From: Streptosporangium sandarakinum
GTDB taxonomy: Bacteria > Actinomycetota > Actinomycetes > Streptosporangiales > Streptosporangiaceae
Assembly (NCBI RefSeq): GCF_013409935.1
Contig: NZ_JACCCO010000001.1
Span: forward strand, 2,170,001 to 2,234,000
Direction: 5' to 3'
Length of the DNA: 64,000 nucleotides
Shown: positions 14,654 through 37,011 of the stretch, in pieces
How the letters are laid out: every line of letters begins with the position of its first letter
How positions within the stretch are numbered: the first letter of the stretch is position 1
The notes under the pieces: model-generated
Database searches by the model: none
What the model was told of the DNA's origin: nothing
Seen by the model: the letters and a program-made list of their open reading frames with translations, nothing else
Program-made: the position numbers and the translations under genes

Positions 14654-15667
14654 TCACAACGGCCGGGCACTGGCCATCAGGGGTGCGATGTCCGCCCAGA
14701 GCTCCTTGCGCGAGTCGGGCACGGTCACGAAGAGCATCGCGGGCTTGCGGCGGCCGACGTCCAGTACGGTGACCGCCGCCTGGGAGGTGTGCTTCTTGCC
14801 GTTCAGCACGTAGGTCACGCGGTAGCCGAGCGTCCAGCCCTTGCCGCCGGCCGCCTTCTGCGAGGCCGTCCAGGCGATCTTCCCGCCCGGCGGGTGGTGG
14901 GTGGCGGCCGTCCACTTCACCGCCTGCATCGCCGCCGTCCGCAGGGCGGGGTAGGTCTTCGGGGCGGTGGCCGGGGTCGCGCCGGGGAGCATCCCGGAGC
15001 CGACGACCGTGCGCGGCAGCCGCGCCGCGCCGACCTGCTGGCCGACCGAGAAGGGCGGCACGACCGCGGCCTTCCAGGGCCTGCCGAGCTTGGCGTAGGT
15101 GATGTCCGCCGTGGCGTCGCTCACCGAGCCGACCACCCCGCTGGGCGTGCCGGGCAGCGCCGCCAGCGCCTTCATCTTGGGCCGGCCGGGCAGTGTGATC
15201 GTGGGGGCGGCCTTCGCGGGGGGCGCGGCGGCGCCCTCCGGCCGGGGCTGCGCGCTCCGCTCGGGGGGCTCGTCCCCGGAGAACAGGACGAAGACCAGCA
15301 CGACCGCGACGGCGGTGAGGAGGGCGGCGACGATGCTGTAGACGGCCCGCAGCGACAGCCCGCCGCGCCGCGGCGGCCCGGCGGGCGAGGCCCCGGACGG
15401 CGGGGGCGGCGCCGGCGGCTCCGTCCGCCCGGCCGGCTCACCCGCGGGCGACGGCCGCTCCGGCGCGGGGAACGCTCCAGCCGGGTCGATCTTCGGGACC
15501 AGCAGGGTCTCCTCGCCGTCCCCGATGGGGAACCGGCGGGGCACCCGGGTGCCGATCATCGTGCCGTCCTCGGCCTGGACCGCGGGCATGGGCGCCGTGG
15601 GCGCCTCGTACGACGGGATGTATCTCTCGTGAGAACGCCCGGAGGAGTCACCGTCAACGTCCGCCAT
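14654..15667 (-). CDS. Single-pass membrane protein with Pro-rich cytoplasmic region, unknown function
   Basis: The 337-residue protein starts with an ATG at 15667. Residues 1-105 are hydrophilic and Pro-rich. A strong membrane helix follows (about 107-130, VYSIVAALLTAVAVVLVFVL). The remaining 200 residues are extracytoplasmic and include two repeated-looking blocks around PRTVVGSGMLPG and MQAVKWTAATHHP. There is no catalytic motif that I recognise. The topology (cytoplasmic disordered segment, one helix, external domain) is common in actinobacterial envelope and kinase-associated proteins. It stands alone, divergent from the protease gene with only about 100 bases between the two starts, so the promoters are shared or overlapping. 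Function unknown. Confidence 0.8.
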   Translation of the reverse strand: MADVDGDSSGRSHERYIPSYEAPTAPMPAVQAEDGTMIGTRVPRRFPIGDGEETLLVPKIDPAGAFPAPERPSPAGEPAGRTEPPAPPPPSGASPAGPPRRGGLSLRAVYSIVAALLTAVAVVLVFVLFSGDEPPERSAQPRPEGAAAPPAKAAPTITLPGRPKMKALAALPGTPSGVVGSVSDATADITYAKLGRPWKAAVVPPFSVGQQVGAARLPRTVVGSGMLPGATPATAPKTYPALRTAAMQAVKWTAATHHPPGGKIAWTASQKAAGGKGWTLGYRVTYVLNGKKHTSQAAVTVLDVGRRKPAMLFVTVPDSRKELWADIAPLMASARPL

Positions 15668-15765
15668 GGTCGTCAGGCTACGTCACGGGACCCGGAACGA
15701 TGAACCCAGACCTGATCAAAACCTCGGCAGGGTACCGCCGCCGGTGTCCGGGAAGATATCCCTGC

Positions 15766-16905
15766 ATGGGGGGATCGACATCGCGGGCCGCGCTGCTGAT
15801 GGCCGTCGCCGTGGCGCTCGCGGGCTGCGGCGGGAACGGCGGGACGGGGCTGACCGGCTCCGTCTCCGACTCGGTCTCCGGCTCGGCCGGCGGCCCGCCC
15901 GCCGTCACGGCCGGCAGACTCCCCGGCTCCCCGACCGGCACGCCGCCCGGCCCCGGGGCGCCGGTCTCACCGCAGTCGCTCCAGGCGGCCTACGAGCAGG
16001 TCATCGCCAAGGTGCTGCCGTCGATCGTGCAGATCACCACGGGGGAGGGCCTCGGCTCCGGGGTCGTCTACGACGCCGCCGGGCACATCGTGACCAACGC
16101 CCACGTGGTCGGCCGGGCCAGGCGCTTCCAGGTGACGCTCGCCAGCGGTGGCCCGCCCCGGCCGGCCAGGCTGATCAGCACCTTCGAGCTGGGCGACCTG
16201 GCCGTGATCAAGGTGGACGACCCCAGGGGGCTGCGGCCGGCCGCGTTCGGCGCCTCCAGCCGCCTGCGGGTCGGCCAGTTCGTCCTGGCCATGGGCAACC
16301 CGCTGGGCCTGTCCGGCAGCGTCACCGACGGGATCGTCTCCGCGCTGGGCCGTACGGTCACCGAGCCCGCCGAGGGCGAGGGCCCCGCCGCGACGATCAC
16401 CAACGCCATCCAGACGTCGGCCGCGATCAACCCGGGCAACAGCGGCGGAGCACTGGTCGACCTCGCGGGGAAGGTCATCGGCATCCCCACCCTCACCGCC
16501 GTCAACCCCGAACTGGGCGGCGGCCAGGCGGCCGGCATCGGCTTCGCGATCCCCTCCGACACCGCCGTGGACATCACCCGGCAGATCATCGAGAAGGGCC
16601 GGGTCGTCAACACCCGCCGGGCCGCCCTCGGCGTCACCGTGCAGACCGTGATCGGCTCCGACGGCCTGCCCGTGGGCACCGGCGTCGTACGGGTCACCCC
16701 CGGCGGCGGCGCGGCGCGGGCGGGGATCAAGGCGGGCGACCTGATCGTCTCCGTCAACGGCACCGCCACCCCGACGACGCAGGCCCTCTCGGAGGTCCTC
16801 GCCGACCTCGATCCCGGCGACCGGGCCCGGGTGGAGCTGCGCCGCTCGAACGGCTCCACCGCCACCGTCACGGTGACCCTGAGCGAACTCCCCAGCGGCG
16901 GCTGA
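15766..16905 (+). CDS. HtrA-like S1C serine protease lipoprotein with PDZ domain
   Basis: The chosen ATG at 15766 gives 379 residues and places a lipobox (VALAGC, Cys21) correctly after a hydrophobic segment. An ATG at 15700 is in frame but would bury the signal. The trypsin-like domain has the full triad: His113 in TNAHVV, Asp144 in LGDLAVIKVDD and Ser226 in NPGNSGGALV. A PDZ domain covers about 295-375 (RVTPGGGAARAGIKAGDLIVSVNG). DegP/HtrA enzymes degrade or refold damaged envelope proteins. Because it is lipid-anchored here, it should act at the outer face of the membrane. The stop lies inside a 21-base tandem duplication. Confidence 0.92.
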   Translation: MGGSTSRAALLMAVAVALAGCGGNGGTGLTGSVSDSVSGSAGGPPAVTAGRLPGSPTGTPPGPGAPVSPQSLQAAYEQVIAKVLPSIVQITTGEGLGSGVVYDAAGHIVTNAHVVGRARRFQVTLASGGPPRPARLISTFELGDLAVIKVDDPRGLRPAAFGASSRLRVGQFVLAMGNPLGLSGSVTDGIVSALGRTVTEPAEGEGPAATITNAIQTSAAINPGNSGGALVDLAGKVIGIPTLTAVNPELGGGQAAGIGFAIPSDTAVDITRQIIEKGRVVNTRRAALGVTVQTVIGSDGLPVGTGVVRVTPGGGAARAGIKAGDLIVSVNGTATPTTQALSEVLADLDPGDRARVELRRSNGSTATVTVTLSELPSGG

Positions 16906-17106: not shown

Positions 17107-17491
17107 TGGTGGAGGTGGCGGGAATCGAACCCGCGTCCTTCAGCTCCAAGACAGGGCTTCTCCGGGTGCAGCCCGCTGTGCTTTTCTCAGCCCCGGCGAT
17201 CACGCAGGCAAGTCGCCGACGGGCTCAGCCACTGTTAGATTTCCCGATCTCCCCCGTGGCCGGGTCGATCGGTTGAGCCTCCTAGCGATGCCGGATCCGG
17301 GCCGGAGGCGCTCCCGGGCCGGCAGAGGTCACTCGCTGCTTAGGCGGCGAGGGCCAGGTTGCCCTGGCTGACCTCGGAGTGCGTCTTATTGGCACTTGTT
17401 GGTCGCGGTCACAGTGTTAACGAGGTTATGTCCGCAGTCCTCGACCCGCTTCCCCTGACTTGCAAAGCCAAAGTCGAAACCAGTCACCCCC
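17107..17491 (-). ncRNA. ssrA: tmRNA (transfer-messenger RNA)
   Basis: The minus strand begins GGGGGTGACTGGTTTCGAC and ends with a T-arm (GGTTCGATTCCCGCC type) and an encoded CCA at 17109-17107. The first 7 bases pair with CACCTCC before the discriminator A, making the alanine-acceptor stem. The resume codon GCC is at 17393, and the tag frame reads ANKTHSEVSQGNLALAA, stopping with TAA at 17342-17340. tmRNA with SmpB frees ribosomes stalled on broken mRNAs and marks the product for proteolysis through the LALAA end. Its partner smpB lies 2.3 kb upstream on the same strand. End positions are set by base pairing and could be off by one base. Confidence 0.96.
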
Positions 17492-17888: not shown

Positions 17889-19787
17889 TCACAGGCCCGC
17901 GCGCAGCCCCCGGAAGAACCGGCCGGCGACGGTCGCCCCGGCGGCGGGGTCGGTGCTCTCCATCAGCACCGCCACGGCCGTGTCCCCCTGCCAGCCGACG
18001 AACCACGCCAGGGGCTTGCGGCCGCGGACGGCGGTGGCGGTGACGCCGTACACCGGGTCGCCCGGGGCCGCGGCGGCGGCGGCCGAACCCGAGGTCACCC
18101 CGGCCCGCATGAGCGTCCTGAGGGTGGCGACCGTCCTGTCGTCGAGCTTGATCTGCGCGGGCGGCGTCACCGGCTTGGTCTCGGCCGACGGGTCGGGCTC
18201 CTTGGGGTCGGTGACCAGGACGGGCGGGTGCCAGGTGCCCGTGGGAGAGGCGACCGCCCCCGCCACCAGGGCCATGGTCAGCGGGCTGACCAGCACGTTC
18301 TGGCCCGCGATGGCCCGCGCCGTGGCCGCGTCCCCCTTCAGGGGCCGCATCGAGCCGCTGAAGGTCGAAAGCGGCAGGTTCCAGTGCGTGCCCAGGCCGA
18401 ACTTCGCCGCGCCGGCCGCCAGCTCGGCGCCGTCCACCTTGCGGGCCAGCGAGGTCAGCGCCGTCACGCAGCCGGTGGCGAAGGCGCCCTGGACGGTGGG
18501 CGTGCTCGGAGCGGGCGGCCCGGACTGGCGGAAGCGGGCGCCGCCGACGCTCCGCTCCGCGGGGCAGGCGAGCTTCTGCTTGAAGTTCGTCCCCGCCTTG
18601 ATCAGCCCCTCGACTGCCATGAGCGAGAAGGCCGAGCCCGGGTGGAACCGCCCGGCCAGGGCGTCCTTCTCCTGGTGGTACTCCTTGGTGGCGCCGACGG
18701 CCCGCACCTCGCCGGTGGAGGCCTGCACCGCGACCAGCATGCCGGGCGTGACGCCGAGCAGCGCGTCGTCCGCCGCCTTCTGGACGCCGCGGTCGAGGGT
18801 GGTGCGCACCGGCGAGGTGGGGCGCCCCTCCCACTTGTGCAGCTCGGCCACCTTCTTCGTCGTCTTGACGTCCAGCGTGATCACGCTGGTCTCGGTCGAG
18901 CCGGTGAGGTACTCCTGGTACGCCTTCTGCAGCCCGGTGCGGCCGACCGTGTCGCCCGCCCGCTGGGGGCCGCCGAGCTGCTGCTGGAGGTCGGCGGTGA
19001 CCGCGGAGACGATGCCCACGATCTGCTTGGGCGAGTCGGGCGCCAGAGGCTGCGGGTCCTTGGCGATGGTGATGCCGGGGATGGCCTTCAGCTGGGACTC
19101 CAGCTGCGCGTAGCGCCTGCCGCCGAAGGTGGCCAGCGGAACGGCCGCGTCCGGCCGGGCCGACCGGATCCGGCTCAGCAGACGGTCCTGCGGGAATCCG
19201 GTGACCTTGGCCAGCCGCTCGCAGACCTCGGACGGATTCTTCAGCTCGGCCGGTGTGACGTTCGCCACGTAGAGCGTGGTCTCCTGCTGGAGGGGCTCAC
19301 CGGTGCGGTCCTGGATCGGGTTGCGCCCCTGGGGCTTGATGTCCACCGCGAACCGCTGGCCCTCGTGCAGCTCGGGGTGCAGGACGCTGGGCGACCAGTG
19401 CACCTTCCACTGGCCGTTCACCAGGCGCAGCGGCAGCTTCCCGTCGTACTCCCACAGGGGGTTGTTCTCCCCCAGGTCGACCTCTGCCGCGAAGTCGGCC
19501 TCGGCCTGCTCGTCCCGGTCGCCCTGCCCGCCGCGCAGGCCGGTCAGCCGGAAGCGGAACGAGGCCGCGTCGAGCTGGACCTTGGCGTCCTCCAGGGCCC
19601 TGCGGACCACCTTCTCGTCGCCGTCGGTGCGCCTGGCGGCGGCGGCGTAGTCACCCGTCTGCCAGCCGACCAGGAAGTCGCGGACCGCCTCGTGGGCCGA
19701 CGGCTCCTCAAGGCACGCCGACAGCAGGGGTGCGGTCGCGACCAGCGTGAGCGCCGCGGCGACGGCGCGCCGAGCCTTCCCCGTCAC
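17889..19787 (-). CDS. Penicillin-binding-protein homologue lacking all three catalytic motifs (lipoprotein)
   Basis: The GTG at 19787 starts 2 bases after the smpB stop and gives 632 residues. A lipobox (LLSAC, Cys25) follows a hydrophobic signal. Residues about 28-150 form an NTF2-like (MecA_N) domain. A dimerisation-type segment and a transpeptidase-like domain (about 330-632) follow. Alignment with the intact paralogue at 35446-37011 is clear through the whole fold (STGEVRAVG, PAERSVGG, WFVGWQGD). However, the SxxK site reads S385-A-F-S388, the SxN site reads G439-C-V, and KTG reads Y580-G-V. No acyl-serine chemistry is expected. It is probably a structural or sensing protein at the outer membrane face. 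Position between smpB and ssrA, downstream of ftsEX, suggests coordination with division, which is inference. Confidence 0.9.
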   Translation of the reverse strand: MTGKARRAVAAALTLVATAPLLSACLEEPSAHEAVRDFLVGWQTGDYAAAARRTDGDEKVVRRALEDAKVQLDAASFRFRLTGLRGGQGDRDEQAEADFAAEVDLGENNPLWEYDGKLPLRLVNGQWKVHWSPSVLHPELHEGQRFAVDIKPQGRNPIQDRTGEPLQQETTLYVANVTPAELKNPSEVCERLAKVTGFPQDRLLSRIRSARPDAAVPLATFGGRRYAQLESQLKAIPGITIAKDPQPLAPDSPKQIVGIVSAVTADLQQQLGGPQRAGDTVGRTGLQKAYQEYLTGSTETSVITLDVKTTKKVAELHKWEGRPTSPVRTTLDRGVQKAADDALLGVTPGMLVAVQASTGEVRAVGATKEYHQEKDALAGRFHPGSAFSLMAVEGLIKAGTNFKQKLACPAERSVGGARFRQSGPPAPSTPTVQGAFATGCVTALTSLARKVDGAELAAGAAKFGLGTHWNLPLSTFSGSMRPLKGDAATARAIAGQNVLVSPLTMALVAGAVASPTGTWHPPVLVTDPKEPDPSAETKPVTPPAQIKLDDRTVATLRTLMRAGVTSGSAAAAAAPGDPVYGVTATAVRGRKPLAWFVGWQGDTAVAVLMESTDPAAGATVAGRFFRGLRAGL

Positions 19788-19789
19788 AG

Positions 19790-20257
19790 TTACCTGTTCC
19801 TGTGCCTGAGCGCGCGGGCCATCTCCCGCTTGGCCTGCTGCTCGGCCAGCGTCTGCCGCTTGTCCCAGTCCTTCTTGCCCTTCGCGAGGCCAATCTCGAT
19901 CTTGGCCTTGCCGTCCTTGAAGTACAGCGCGAGCGGCACCAGGGTGAGGCCGCCCTCCTTGGTCTTGGCGGCGAGCTTGTCGAGCTCCTTGCGGTGGAGC
20001 AGCAGCTTGCGGGTACGGCGCGCCGCGTGGTTGGTCCACGTCCCCATCGTGTACTCGGGGATGTGGACGTTGATCAGCCAGGCCTCGCCGTCCTTGATCG
20101 TGGCGTACCCGTCGACGAGGGACGCCCGCCCCAGGCGGAGCGACTTGACCTCGGTGCCCTGCAGCACGAGGCCGGCCTCGAAGGTCTCCTCGATGTGGTA
20201 GTCGTGCCAGGCACGCTTGTTCTGGGCGATGGCCTTCCGCCCGGTCTCACGTGGCAT
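19790..20257 (-). CDS. smpB: SmpB, tmRNA-binding protein
   Basis: The 155-residue protein starts with an ATG at 20257 and has the whole SmpB barrel: [41 protein letters not shown] and [13 protein letters not shown]. The basic carboxyl tail ([20 protein letters not shown]) enters the decoding centre of stalled ribosomes. It is required for trans-translation with the tmRNA encoded 2.3 kb downstream. The order ftsE, ftsX, smpB on one strand is common in actinobacteria. The gap to ftsX is 79 bases. Confidence 0.98.
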
Positions 20258-20336: not shown

Positions 20337-21242
20337 TCACACCCGCAGGTAGCGGCGGAGCGTGACGAACGACGCCAGGATACAGATCACCACACCGAAG
20401 ATCAGCGTGATGAGGATGACCTTGGTCACGGTCTCCCAGGTGAGCACGGTGTTGGCGAGGTAGACCTGCACCTTGTCGAAGAGGAACACCTTGCTGACCA
20501 TCAGCAGCACCCCGGACATCACACCGCCGATCAGGCCGGCGATGACGCCCTCCATGACGAACGGCAACTGGATGTAGATGTTGGACGCGCCCACCAGCCG
20601 CATGATCCCGGTCTCGCGCCTGCGGTTGTAGGCCGACAGCCGGACGGTGTTGCCGATCAGCAGCGTGGCCGCGAAGACCAGGATGATGGCGACCACCAAG
20701 GCGGCCCAGCGGAGGCTCTCCAGCAGGGCGAAGAACTTCTCCAGGATCTCCTTCTGGTTGACCACGTTGGAGACGCCGGGGGCTCCCTTGAGCTGCTCGA
20801 TCACCGCGGTGTAGGTGTCCGGGTCCTTGAGCTTCACCCGGAACGACTCCGGCATGTCCTCGGCCCGGATCGCCGACAGCAGCACGGTGTTGCCGGAGTT
20901 CGTCGTCTTGAAGACCTCGTAGGCGTGCGCGGAGTCCTCAAAGGAGACCGACTCGACCTGCGGCATCGCCTTGATCTGCTGGGAGAGGGCGGCCTGCTCC
21001 TGGGCGTTCACCCCGCCGCTGCCCTTGCACGCCGGGAAGGGGTCGTTCTTCTTGCACAGGAAGACCGAGACCTCGACCTTGTCCGACCAGAAGTCCTTCA
21101 TGGTGGAGATCTGGGAGTTGATCATCAGGCCGACGCCCAGCAGGGCCATGCCGATCGCCACTGTCACGATCACCGCGACGGTCATCGTGAGGTTACGCCG
21201 GAGGCCGATCCAGACCTCGGAGAAGATGAAGTTTGCCCGCAT
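20337..21242 (-). CDS. ftsX: Cell-division protein FtsX (permease-like)
   Basis: The 301-residue protein has a cytoplasmic amino end, a first helix (about 21-45), an extracellular domain (about 46-170) and three further helices in the carboxyl half (around 180-205, 230-255 and 270-295). The external domain has two cysteines (CKKNDPFPAC) that could form a disulfide, as known in mycobacterial FtsX. FtsX anchors FtsE and transmits ATP hydrolysis across the membrane to peptidoglycan hydrolases (RipC-type in mycobacteria). AGGAAGAG precedes the ATG, 33 bases after the ftsE stop. Confidence 0.97.
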   Translation of the reverse strand: MRANFIFSEVWIGLRRNLTMTVAVIVTVAIGMALLGVGLMINSQISTMKDFWSDKVEVSVFLCKKNDPFPACKGSGGVNAQEQAALSQQIKAMPQVESVSFEDSAHAYEVFKTTNSGNTVLLSAIRAEDMPESFRVKLKDPDTYTAVIEQLKGAPGVSNVVNQKEILEKFFALLESLRWAALVVAIILVFAATLLIGNTVRLSAYNRRRETGIMRLVGASNIYIQLPFVMEGVIAGLIGGVMSGVLLMVSKVFLFDKVQVYLANTVLTWETVTKVILITLIFGVVICILASFVTLRRYLRV

Positions 21243-21275: not shown

Positions 21276-21965
21276 TCAGTACGCCTGGCCGTACACGCCA
21301 CGCGACTGGTCTCGGACGATCTTGCCGTCCTCCAGTTCCACTACGCGTTTGCGCATGGAGTCGACGATGGCCGCGTCGTGCGTGGCCATGACGACGGTGG
21401 TGCCCGTCCGGTTGATCCGGTCGAGCACCTTCATGATGCCGATGCTCGTGGCCGGGTCGATGTTTCCGGTGGGCTCGTCGGCCAGGAGGATCATCGGCCG
21501 GTTGACGAACGCGCGGGCCATCGCGACCCGCTGCTGCTCACCGCCGGACAGCTCGTCGGGCATCCGGTGGGCCTTGCCCTCCAGGCCGACGAGCTCGACG
21601 ACCTCGGGCACGACCTTACGGATGAACCGCCGCGGCTTGCCGATCACTTCGAGGGCGAACGCGACGTTCTCGTACACGTTCTTGTTCGGCAGGAGCCGGA
21701 AGTCCTGGAACACGCAGCCGATCCGGCGGCGCAGGTGCGGCACCTTGAAGTTGGACAACCGGGAGAGGTCCTTGCCGGCGACCTGGATCACCCCGGAGTC
21801 GGGGCGCTCCTCCTTGAGGACCAGGCGCAGGAAGGTGGACTTCCCCGACCCGGAGGGGCCGACGAGGAACACGAACTCACCCTTGTCGACATCGACGCTG
21901 ACGTGGTCCAGCGCGGGCCGGTTCTGGTTCGCGTAGACCTTGGTGACATTATCAAAATGGATCAC
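21276..21965 (-). CDS. ftsE: Cell-division ATP-binding protein FtsE
   Basis: The 229-residue ABC ATPase has Walker [10 protein letters not shown] (near residue 36), a Q-loop, the signature [14 protein letters not shown] and Walker [13 protein letters not shown]. It is the cytoplasmic partner of FtsX and links the divisome to septal cell-wall hydrolysis. The start is a GTG ([11 protein letters not shown]) with no clear Shine-Dalgarno sequence. A TAGACT promoter-like box 20 bases upstream would give a very short leader. Confidence 0.97.
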
Positions 21966-35445: not shown

Positions 35446-37011
35446 ATGAGGAACAAATACAGGTACGGCGCGGCCGCGGTCGCGCTGGCCGCCGCCGCGG
35501 CGGGCGCGGGCGTGTGGCTGCTGCGCACGCCGGGGTCGCCCGAGGACACCGCCCGGGACTTCCTCGCCGCCTGGACCCGGCAGGACTACCGGGCGATGCG
35601 GGCGCTGACCGTCGACCCGCCGGGTGACTTCGACCGCTGGTACACCCGCTTCCGGTCGGACCTGAAGATGTCGGGGGCCGCCTTCCGGGTCACCGGTGGC
35701 GACGACGCCGACGGCTCCGACGGCTCCGACGGCTCCGACGGCTCCACGGTCCGGTTCCGGGCGACGCTGGACGGCCCGGTGCGCTGGTCCTACGACGGGT
35801 CACTGCGGGTGGTCGAGCACGAGCGGGCCTGGCGGGTGCGGTGGACCCCGGCGGCGATCCACCCCCGCCTCGGCCCGGACCTGCGGATCAAGGCCGTGCC
35901 GTCCCGGCCCGAGCGGGCGCCGATCCTGGCCGCCGACGGCACCAGGATCGACACCCCCTCCGCGCCCGGCTCGGTGCAGCAGCTCGTCGAGGGGCTCGCC
36001 GGCAGGTACGCCGCCCGCCTCACCGGCTCCTCCGGCGGCCGGGTCGACCTGGTGCGGGACGCCGAACGGGTCACCACGCTCGCCACCGCGGGCGCGCGGC
36101 CGGGCCGGAAGCTGACCACCACGATCGACCTGCGGGTGCACCGCGCCGCCGCCGACGCCATGGACGGCGTGACCAAGCCCGCCTCGCTCGTCGCGCTGCG
36201 CCCCTCGACGGGGGAGGTCCTCGCGGTGGCCAACCAGCCCGGCGGGTTCAACCGGGCGCTGCTCGGCCACTACCCGCCCGGCTCCACCTTCAAGGTGGTC
36301 ACCGCCTCGGCCCTGGTCGCGGGCGGCATGACGGCCGATCAGCCGGTCGGCTGCCCCGCCGAGCGGAACATCGGCGGCTACGCCTTCCACAACGCCGGCT
36401 TCGAGGACTTCGGCACGGTGCCGCTGCGGGCGGCGTTCGCGCACTCGTGCAACACCACGTTCGGGTCGCTGAGCGTGGAACGGCTCGGCGCCGAGCGCCT
36501 GTCCTCGGTCGCGGCGAGCTTCGGTTTCGGCGGGCCGGTGGACCCGGGGGTGCCCGCCGTACGGGCGCAGTTCCCGGCCCCGAAGGACGACACCGACCTC
36601 GCCTCGGCCGCGATCGGGCAGGGCCGCGTCCTGACCAGCCCGCTGAACATGGCCACCGTCGCCGCCGCCATCGCCGACGGCTCCTGGCGCCCGCCCCGCC
36701 TCGTGGACGCCGCCCTGCTGCCGGCCGCCCAGCCGAGGAGGCTGGAGCCCGCGGTGGTGCGGGCGCTGCGCACGCTGATGCCCGCGGTGGTGACGGACGG
36801 CACCGCCAAGGGGGTCTCCTTCCCGTCCGGTACGGCGGGCAAGACCGGGACCGCGGAGTTCGGCTCGGGGAAGGAGCCGCCCACCCACTCCTGGTTCATC
36901 GGCTACCGCGGCGACCTGGCGTTCTCGGTGATCGTGGAGGGTGCCGGCGAGGGAGCGGCGGTGGCCGCCCCGATCGCCGCCCGGTTCCTCAACGGCCTCG
37001 CCTCGCCCTGA
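35446..37011 (+). CDS. Penicillin-binding protein, class B-like transpeptidase with NTF2-like domain
   Basis: The ATG at 35446 has AGGGGGAC upstream and gives 521 residues. An uncleaved amino helix (residues 6-25) anchors it outside the membrane. The NTF2-like MecA_N domain covers about 30-135 and includes a Gly-Ser-Asp repeat. The transpeptidase domain has a full active site: S280-T-F-K283, S334-C-N336 and K466-T-G. MecA-like class B enzymes cross-link peptidoglycan, and some have low affinity for beta-lactams. Divergent from a LysR gene and a beta-lactamase-like gene, it may belong to a beta-lactam response. The protein at 17889-19787 is its inactivated relative. Confidence 0.94.
   Translation: MRNKYRYGAAAVALAAAAAGAGVWLLRTPGSPEDTARDFLAAWTRQDYRAMRALTVDPPGDFDRWYTRFRSDLKMSGAAFRVTGGDDADGSDGSDGSDGSTVRFRATLDGPVRWSYDGSLRVVEHERAWRVRWTPAAIHPRLGPDLRIKAVPSRPERAPILAADGTRIDTPSAPGSVQQLVEGLAGRYAARLTGSSGGRVDLVRDAERVTTLATAGARPGRKLTTTIDLRVHRAAADAMDGVTKPASLVALRPSTGEVLAVANQPGGFNRALLGHYPPGSTFKVVTASALVAGGMTADQPVGCPAERNIGGYAFHNAGFEDFGTVPLRAAFAHSCNTTFGSLSVERLGAERLSSVAASFGFGGPVDPGVPAVRAQFPAPKDDTDLASAAIGQGRVLTSPLNMATVAAAIADGSWRPPRLVDAALLPAAQPRRLEPAVVRALRTLMPAVVTDGTAKGVSFPSGTAGKTGTAEFGSGKEPPTHSWFIGYRGDLAFSVIVEGAGEGAAVAAPIAARFLNGLASP
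35710..35745 (+). repeat. Four perfect copies of a 9-bp coding repeat
   Basis: GACGGCTCC is repeated four times in tandem and encodes Asp-Gly-Ser units in the NTF2-like domain of the penicillin-binding protein. Copy number is likely to vary between strains without breaking the frame. Confidence 0.85.

Follow-up and report, generated by a model that had tools for sequence, protein, structure and literature searches.

The window, the whole 64,000-nucleotide stretch of Streptosporangium sandarakinum DNA analysed here, carries on its minus strand at 17889..19787 a gene with a GTG start that encodes a 632-residue homologue of the penicillin-binding proteins (PBPs). Upstream on the same strand lie smpB (19790..20257, named by sequence and position), whose stop falls 2 bases before the start of the PBP homologue, ftsX (20337..21242), which has FtsX_ECD and FtsX Pfam domains, and ftsE (21276..21965), named from sequence and position, with relatives 83–100% identical over the part seen that adjoin ftsX in many of the fetched loci. 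The tmRNA gene ssrA (17107..17491, minus strand) follows 397 bases downstream, so that the gene does lie between ftsEX-smpB and ssrA, where the first-pass annotation had placed it. At some loci of relatives (L061, L210, L249, L267 and others) an open reading frame between ftsX and smpB resembles, by eye, a PDZ-containing S41 peptidase, and at two (L254, L302) a coiled-coil M23-like protein occupies this interval, also by eye; the window has no open reading frame of either kind there. Elsewhere in the window we note an HtrA-like serine protease with a PDZ domain (15700-16905, plus strand) that is convergent with ssrA, a 337-residue open reading frame (14654-15667, minus strand) that matches no Pfam or NCBIfam family at E ≤ 1, and a full-length raiA RNA motif (RF03072; 62966-63217, minus strand; 151.7 bits).

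The encoded protein begins with a predicted lipobox (LSAC, residues 22–25, by sequence pattern; Cys25 at 19713..19715), followed by a MecA_N or NTF2-like domain (residues 30–144, 19356..19700; Pfam PF05223, 44 bits against a cut-off of 22), a PBP_dimer or pedestal domain (residues 155–307, 18867..19325; PF03717, 51.3 bits, above cut-off) and a transpeptidase domain (residues 349–626, 17910..18743; PF00905, 70.6 bits against a cut-off of 22.1), all on the minus strand. The last of these matches makes it, by sequence profile, a member of the transpeptidase fold; the Pfam search returned no glycosyltransferase family up to E 1. All three domains were matched in each of the 40 members of alignment A1, MecA_N at E ≤ 0.001. 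The best PDB match by sequence is a PBP5 chain (E 7e-17, residues 32–374), and the NCBIfam equivalogs pbp2_mrdA, PBP4_5_Efaec and MECA_PBP2A scored 114, 70 and 26 bits against curated cut-offs of 455, 700 and 750, none of which was reached. The lipobox pattern recurs in 136 of 148 proteins (the fragment L245 and 147 family members); these 136 are predicted lipoproteins and would sit at the cell surface. Among the exceptions, 2 have a cysteine at that place, 9 have none there and L245 lacks its start, all starts and lipoboxes being predictions.

Loss of the catalytic motifs

As comparison sequence we used a MecA_N paralogue at 35446..37011 (plus strand), in which GSTFK, SCN and KTG are intact and most of the pedestal is missing. 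At the aligned sites the homologue reads S385-A-F-S388 in place of SxxK (18624..18635), G439-C-V441 in place of SxN (18465..18473) and V579-Y-G-V-T-A584 in the region of KTG (18036..18053), each on the minus strand. The first-pass annotation had reported all three motifs as absent, and this stands with two amendments. The lysine of SxxK is indeed lost, but the nucleophile serine is retained; likewise, there is no KTG in either reading, but the YGV that had been aligned with it begins two residues before the aligned place, V582-T583-A584. What has gone is thus the lysine of SxxK, the serine and asparagine of SxN, and KTG. With its domains kept and the three defining motifs failing, the gene is, as judged from its sequence, a pseudo-PBP derived from the MecA_N class B PBPs and not a PBP, and its product would not be expected to undergo acylation or to bind penicillin covalently.

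The orthologue alignment of the three motifs that the first-pass annotation had proposed was made with MAFFT, as were all motif counts given here, over 148 distinct relatives (147 of family f1, to which Streptosporangium belongs, and L249 of the neighbouring family f47). In the pooled alignment neither the SxxK lysine nor the KTG lysine occurs in any of the 148, the SxxK serine occurs in 18 and the SxN asparagine in 3, and the middle cysteine is present in all of them. A K[TS]G string was found between SPLxMA and WFVG in 17 of the 148, with 2 faulty anchors, and within 55 residues before WF[VI]G in 2 (L059 and L066), where it lies away from the aligned KTG place; L160 is without the anchor. 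As both lysines are also missing from another 147 distinct proteins, the motif loss is not due to chance. A sequencing error is unlikely, as the record of Streptosporangium pseudovulgare JCM 3115 (L099), 98% identical, has the same letters at all three motif sites.

Distribution of the dead copies and conservation of gene order

A search of the family gave a match in 150 of 150 genomes, paralogues counted, and from these genomes we fetched 90 loci, one per genome (L001, L010–L098). The SxxK and KTG lysines are absent from all 90 and the SxN asparagine from 89, L091 being the one that keeps it. The best match was weak or partial in three genomes: G040, where the gene is split over two contigs and the fragment L245 is without motifs; G056, where the contig ends just after smpB; and G105. 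One stop inside the matched stretch was flagged for each of G067, G085 and G140, and in G067 (L070) an open frame spans all three domains. A scan of named genomes, of which the best 80 of 355 candidate loci were kept, found the motifs absent in 80 of 80 and smpB in 79 of 80; the named genera with a dead copy include Streptosporangium, Planobispora, Planomonospora, Nonomuraea, Microbispora, Microtetraspora, Sphaerisporangium, Herbidospora and Spongiactinospora. One Nonomuraea strain (sp. MG754425, L171) has a second dead copy that does not adjoin smpB and that falls inside the dead clade of the tree.

The position beside smpB is kept at almost all of the family loci examined. In all 90 of the loci examined first, smpB lies upstream on the same strand, at a gap of at most 100 bases from the chosen start in 80 of them (widest 1,076 bases). 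For the 79 named loci that have smpB, the distance from its stop to the chosen start has a median of 3 bases (from −4 to 35) and stays within 30 in 78. A tmRNA gene follows downstream on the same strand in 54 of 54 named loci scanned (of the 80). No tmRNA was found in 19 kb of the f47 locus or in 18 kb from one f48 genome, and the f7 tmRNA gene is ~2.7 kb past the intact PBP, so the ssrA neighbourhood is not general. A profile search of 36 further smpB loci of the class, from other families, found no such PBP; at 5 of these loci the sequence after smpB is shorter than 2 kb. Since ftsX is also near smpB in 18 of these 36 loci without such a PBP, linkage to ftsEX is weak evidence for FtsX as a partner, and FtsX as a shown partner, for which the neighbourhood alone speaks, was set aside.

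Intact relatives and a probable single loss of catalysis

The first-pass annotation had regarded orthologues with intact motifs as evidence against the loss. Such orthologues do occur at the same place: in f48, a family of the same order, the copy adjoining smpB has all motifs intact in 3 of 3 genomes (L250–L252), and one f7 genome and one f35 genome likewise have an intact smpB-linked copy. As they belong to other families, they give the direction of the change, and the loss described here stands. In f47, represented by one genome (L249), the motifs are lost and the serine is kept. An f18 genome (G365) has two full-length intact copies (L227, L228), one of them directly after smpB and ssrA, in the order smpB, ssrA, PBP.

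In a first tree of 57 chosen rows, with the motif columns removed and rooted on L003 and L004, the 29 dead copies form one clade (100/100) with one change of state. In a second tree (51 rows; an outgroup of other class B PBPs; motif columns and residues 165–256 omitted), the 14 dead copies included again form one clade (100/100). The dead copies being a single clade in both trees, catalysis was probably lost once across them. The trees gave no clear branching order among the dead clade, the f48 copies, the truncated paralogues and other class members, and the second tree left the duplication and its timing unsettled. Partial motif decay was seen separately in a second MecA_N-type PBP of two f13 genomes (L215, L217), which reads GTAFK and TTGTAL and keeps SCN.

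Selection and the shift of constraint

The pseudo-PBP gene is under purifying selection. By the Nei-Gojobori method, whose values are rough for GC-rich genes, whole-gene dN/dS is below 1 in 19 of 19 close pairs (0.10–0.53), and the transpeptidase domain alone gives 0.10–0.50 over 19 pairs. With the frame open in 148 distinct relatives and the position kept, there is neither a broken frame nor neutral evolution, and the earlier view of a maintained gene as opposed to a pseudogene is upheld. That the gene is nevertheless decaying, carried along by its neighbours smpB and ssrA, could be argued from a dN/dS that, summed over 16 of these pairs, is 0.37 against 0.29 for ftsX and 0.15 for smpB, from a pedestal dN/dS of 1.10 in one of the 19 pairs (L110–L111) and from relaxed constraint on the transpeptidase domain. 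We hold this to be highly improbable, given the purifying selection on the whole gene, its near full length in the 148 proteins and an NTF2-like domain under stronger constraint than in the paralogue.

This redistribution of constraint was quantified by mean column entropy, comparing 60 dead copies with 32 intact class members (of 35), both sets non-redundant. The NTF2-like domain has 1.64 bits in the dead copies versus 2.29 in the intact members, the pedestal is equal (1.87 and 1.88 bits) and the transpeptidase domain has 1.92 versus 1.52 bits. Because the dead and intact sets differ in breadth, we made a matched control from 17 of the 22 paralogues, each set against the dead copy of its own genome; the other five were left out where the dead copy was not retrieved, a fragment or not found. 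Mean identity in the NTF2-like domain is 0.543 for the dead copies versus 0.410 for the paralogue, in the pedestal 0.451 versus 0.506 (82 of 163 columns comparable) and in the transpeptidase domain 0.444 versus 0.584. When the columns of this matched set were shuffled, none of 10,000 shuffles gave a gap in entropy change between the NTF2-like and transpeptidase domains as large as the observed one, nor did any of 10,000 with the motif blocks left out; for the transpeptidase domain without motifs against the pedestal, 5 of 10,000 did. Conservation has thus shifted from the transpeptidase to the NTF2-like domain, the opposite of the intact paralogue, in a comparison that covers 17 genomes and two paralogues of different history.

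In the matched set the motif blocks have a mean column entropy of 1.35 bits in the dead copies, versus 0.68 in the paralogue. Across the broader set of dead copies 26 positions are newly conserved: 9 in the NTF2-like domain and 7 in the pedestal (16 N-terminal in all), 2 in the linker, and 8 in the transpeptidase domain, all eight small, hydrophobic or aromatic. The first-pass annotation had suggested a structural or sensory role without acylation, and the move of constraint to the N-terminal domains supports a structural rather than an enzymatic one. Binding of peptidoglycan precursors, which it also proposed, is not supported for the old active site, given the lost conservation of the motif blocks and the character of the eight new transpeptidase positions, which make the cleft less likely as a ligand site. 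The same loss of conservation, together with the predominance of N-terminal positions among those newly conserved, weighs against a sensor or decoy that would bind muropeptides, lipid II or beta-lactams without acylation and report or buffer them. A role of this kind seems unlikely to us, even though the transpeptidase fold and C408/C440 are retained, and S. aureus PBP2a is reported to have an allosteric site outside its catalytic domain. A ligand role is possible inasmuch as the transpeptidase domain is still somewhat constrained; in a variant of the sensor the ligand site may lie in the NTF2-like or pedestal domain.

The dead copies have been conserved over a long time and share many invariant residues, two cysteines among them, which might point to a new reaction catalysed by the old cleft or by another part of the protein. 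C408 and C440 are, however, conserved to at least 90% in the intact relatives too, so they probably form an inherited disulphide, and a new cysteine nucleophile was rejected for this reason; the small, hydrophobic or aromatic nature of the new transpeptidase positions also counts against such chemistry, which we regard as very improbable.

Intact paralogues with a truncated pedestal

The host genome encodes four MecA_N proteins, namely the pseudo-PBP and three intact, truncated ones. Among the matches listed, a second match starting near profile position 250, which is the mark of the truncated paralogue, occurs in 56 of 57 f1 genomes and in the f47 genome, and the 57th f1 genome (G037) has only a shorter second match among those listed. 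The 22 paralogues that we read (21 from f1, 1 from f47), picked from genomes with a listed match and not a random sample, all have the three motifs, and all lack about residues 170–251 of the pedestal (19035..19280, minus strand, in the pseudo-PBP), the domain being 51% filled on average. This segment is missing in none of the 148 dead copies, the 6 intact copies linked to or near smpB, or the 28 other intact proteins. Each of two f48 genomes searched has one MecA_N protein, which is the linked intact one, and a search with the truncated paralogue in five genomes of f48, f7 and f35 gave the smpB-linked intact protein itself as top hit; the lack of a separate best match there fits a linked copy that was freed from catalysis once another enzyme was present. 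Truncated intact MecA_N-type PBPs that miss the same pedestal segment were also seen in f18 and f17 (L241, L247, L248), with no full-length relative listed.

These observations raise the possibility of a split enzyme, in which the truncated catalytic paralogues would do the chemistry and the dead copy would supply a full pedestal in trans. The complementary pattern, with the segment absent from every intact paralogue read and the domain kept in every dead copy, speaks for it, as do the five genomes in which the truncated form finds the linked intact protein as its best match. In two f18 genomes (G404 and G397), however, truncated intact forms (L241, L247) are what best matches the dead family, the listed matches include no full-length relative, and the truncation is not dated by the tree; we therefore consider the split doubtful. 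Equally doubtful is its fullest form, a bifunctional class B PBP divided in nature into truncated catalytic paralogues and a dead, smpB-coupled lipoprotein that, with its full pedestal and newly constrained NTF2-like domain, would direct or activate a wall synthase in trans.

Proposed role of the pseudo-PBP

In this family of soil actinobacteria, motif loss combined with long retention beside the same genes suggests a helper or scaffold rather than an enzyme. In our working model, the ancestor would have been a functional MecA_N-type class B PBP that already adjoined smpB; its acylation chemistry would have been lost, probably once, in the ancestor of f1 (Streptosporangium, Nonomuraea, Microbispora and allies) and f47, and the gene would then have been kept. 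Contact with a partner, which may be a SEDS/class B PBP synthase or some other envelope protein, would be made by the NTF2-like and pedestal domains, with the transpeptidase fold retained as a structural module. The pseudo-PBP may well be such a membrane-anchored, non-catalytic scaffold or regulator of cell-wall synthesis acting through its NTF2-like and pedestal domains, a reading to which we give roughly even credence. Several points argue against a scaffold. On the prevailing view a membrane helix takes part when class B PBPs activate SEDS enzymes, whereas the pseudo-PBP is a predicted lipoprotein in most relatives; the pedestal of the L110–L111 pair has a dN/dS above 1 and constraint on the gene is weaker than on ftsX and smpB; and the truncated intact forms of the two f18 genomes in which no full-length relative was seen would need no dead partner there.

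Two functions are attributed to class B PBPs: they crosslink, and they organize or activate the synthase. Work on the second has relied on mutants in which catalysis was abolished by design. A dead PBP that is natural and conserved across an actinobacterial family, with intact relatives in the equivalent position in other families and intact paralogues in the same cells, would allow the structural function to be studied alone, and if the split reading were true the proposed scaffold role of class B PBPs could be tested as a separate protein. For annotation, the family is a warning that transpeptidase matches in these genomes are not all drug targets.

Comparison with known systems

Degenerate LytM factors such as EnvC are dead relatives of wall enzymes that regulate others together with FtsEX. 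By analogy, the pseudo-PBP would likewise be a dead relative of a wall enzyme encoded near ftsEX, but its fold is different and its link to FtsEX is known here from gene neighbourhood alone. Closer in architecture are B. subtilis PBP3/PbpC, S. aureus PBP2a and E. faecium PBP5, whose N-terminal and pedestal domains are related to those of the pseudo-PBP. MecA_N-type class B PBPs have their catalytic motifs and bind beta-lactams, and in this the pseudo-PBP, which is without the motifs, differs from all three. For B. subtilis PBP3, PMC5656894 records the MecA_N domain, the presence of the catalytic motifs and the binding of beta-lactams.

Among actinobacterial proteins, mycobacterial PBP-lipo (Rv2864c / MAB_3167c) is described in PMC9170245 as a class B PBP and hypothetical lipoprotein, and carries PF05223 according to PMC3987819. 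The pseudo-PBP appears to share with it the actinobacterial host, the class, the predicted lipid anchor and this domain, a likeness by class and domain. In PMC9170245, a serine mutant of PBP-lipo fails to rescue growth of M. abscessus, which implies that catalysis matters there, a difference from the pseudo-PBP, in which the motifs are missing.

A literature search of a partial library, with few subscription journals and no bioRxiv preprints, found no description of a natural dead PBP, nor is there one in the accessible portions of PMC9170245, PMC3987819, PMC6273383, PMC6804068 and PMC10352307; the entries with absent motifs in Tables 2 and 5 of PMC6273383, as far as that text is available, are beta-lactamase candidates and not PBPs. 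Precedents that class B PBPs can work without catalysis come from two further reports: B. subtilis PBP 2B with its serine replaced (S309A) supports division, PBP 3 then becoming essential (PMC5656894), and in C. difficile the promotion of asymmetric division by PBP3 does not depend on its catalysis (PMC12713402). By analogy with these two proteins, the pseudo-PBP would be a class B PBP relative that supports division without catalysis of its own; in contrast to them, which are engineered mutants of intact enzymes, its loss of the catalytic motifs is natural and family-wide.
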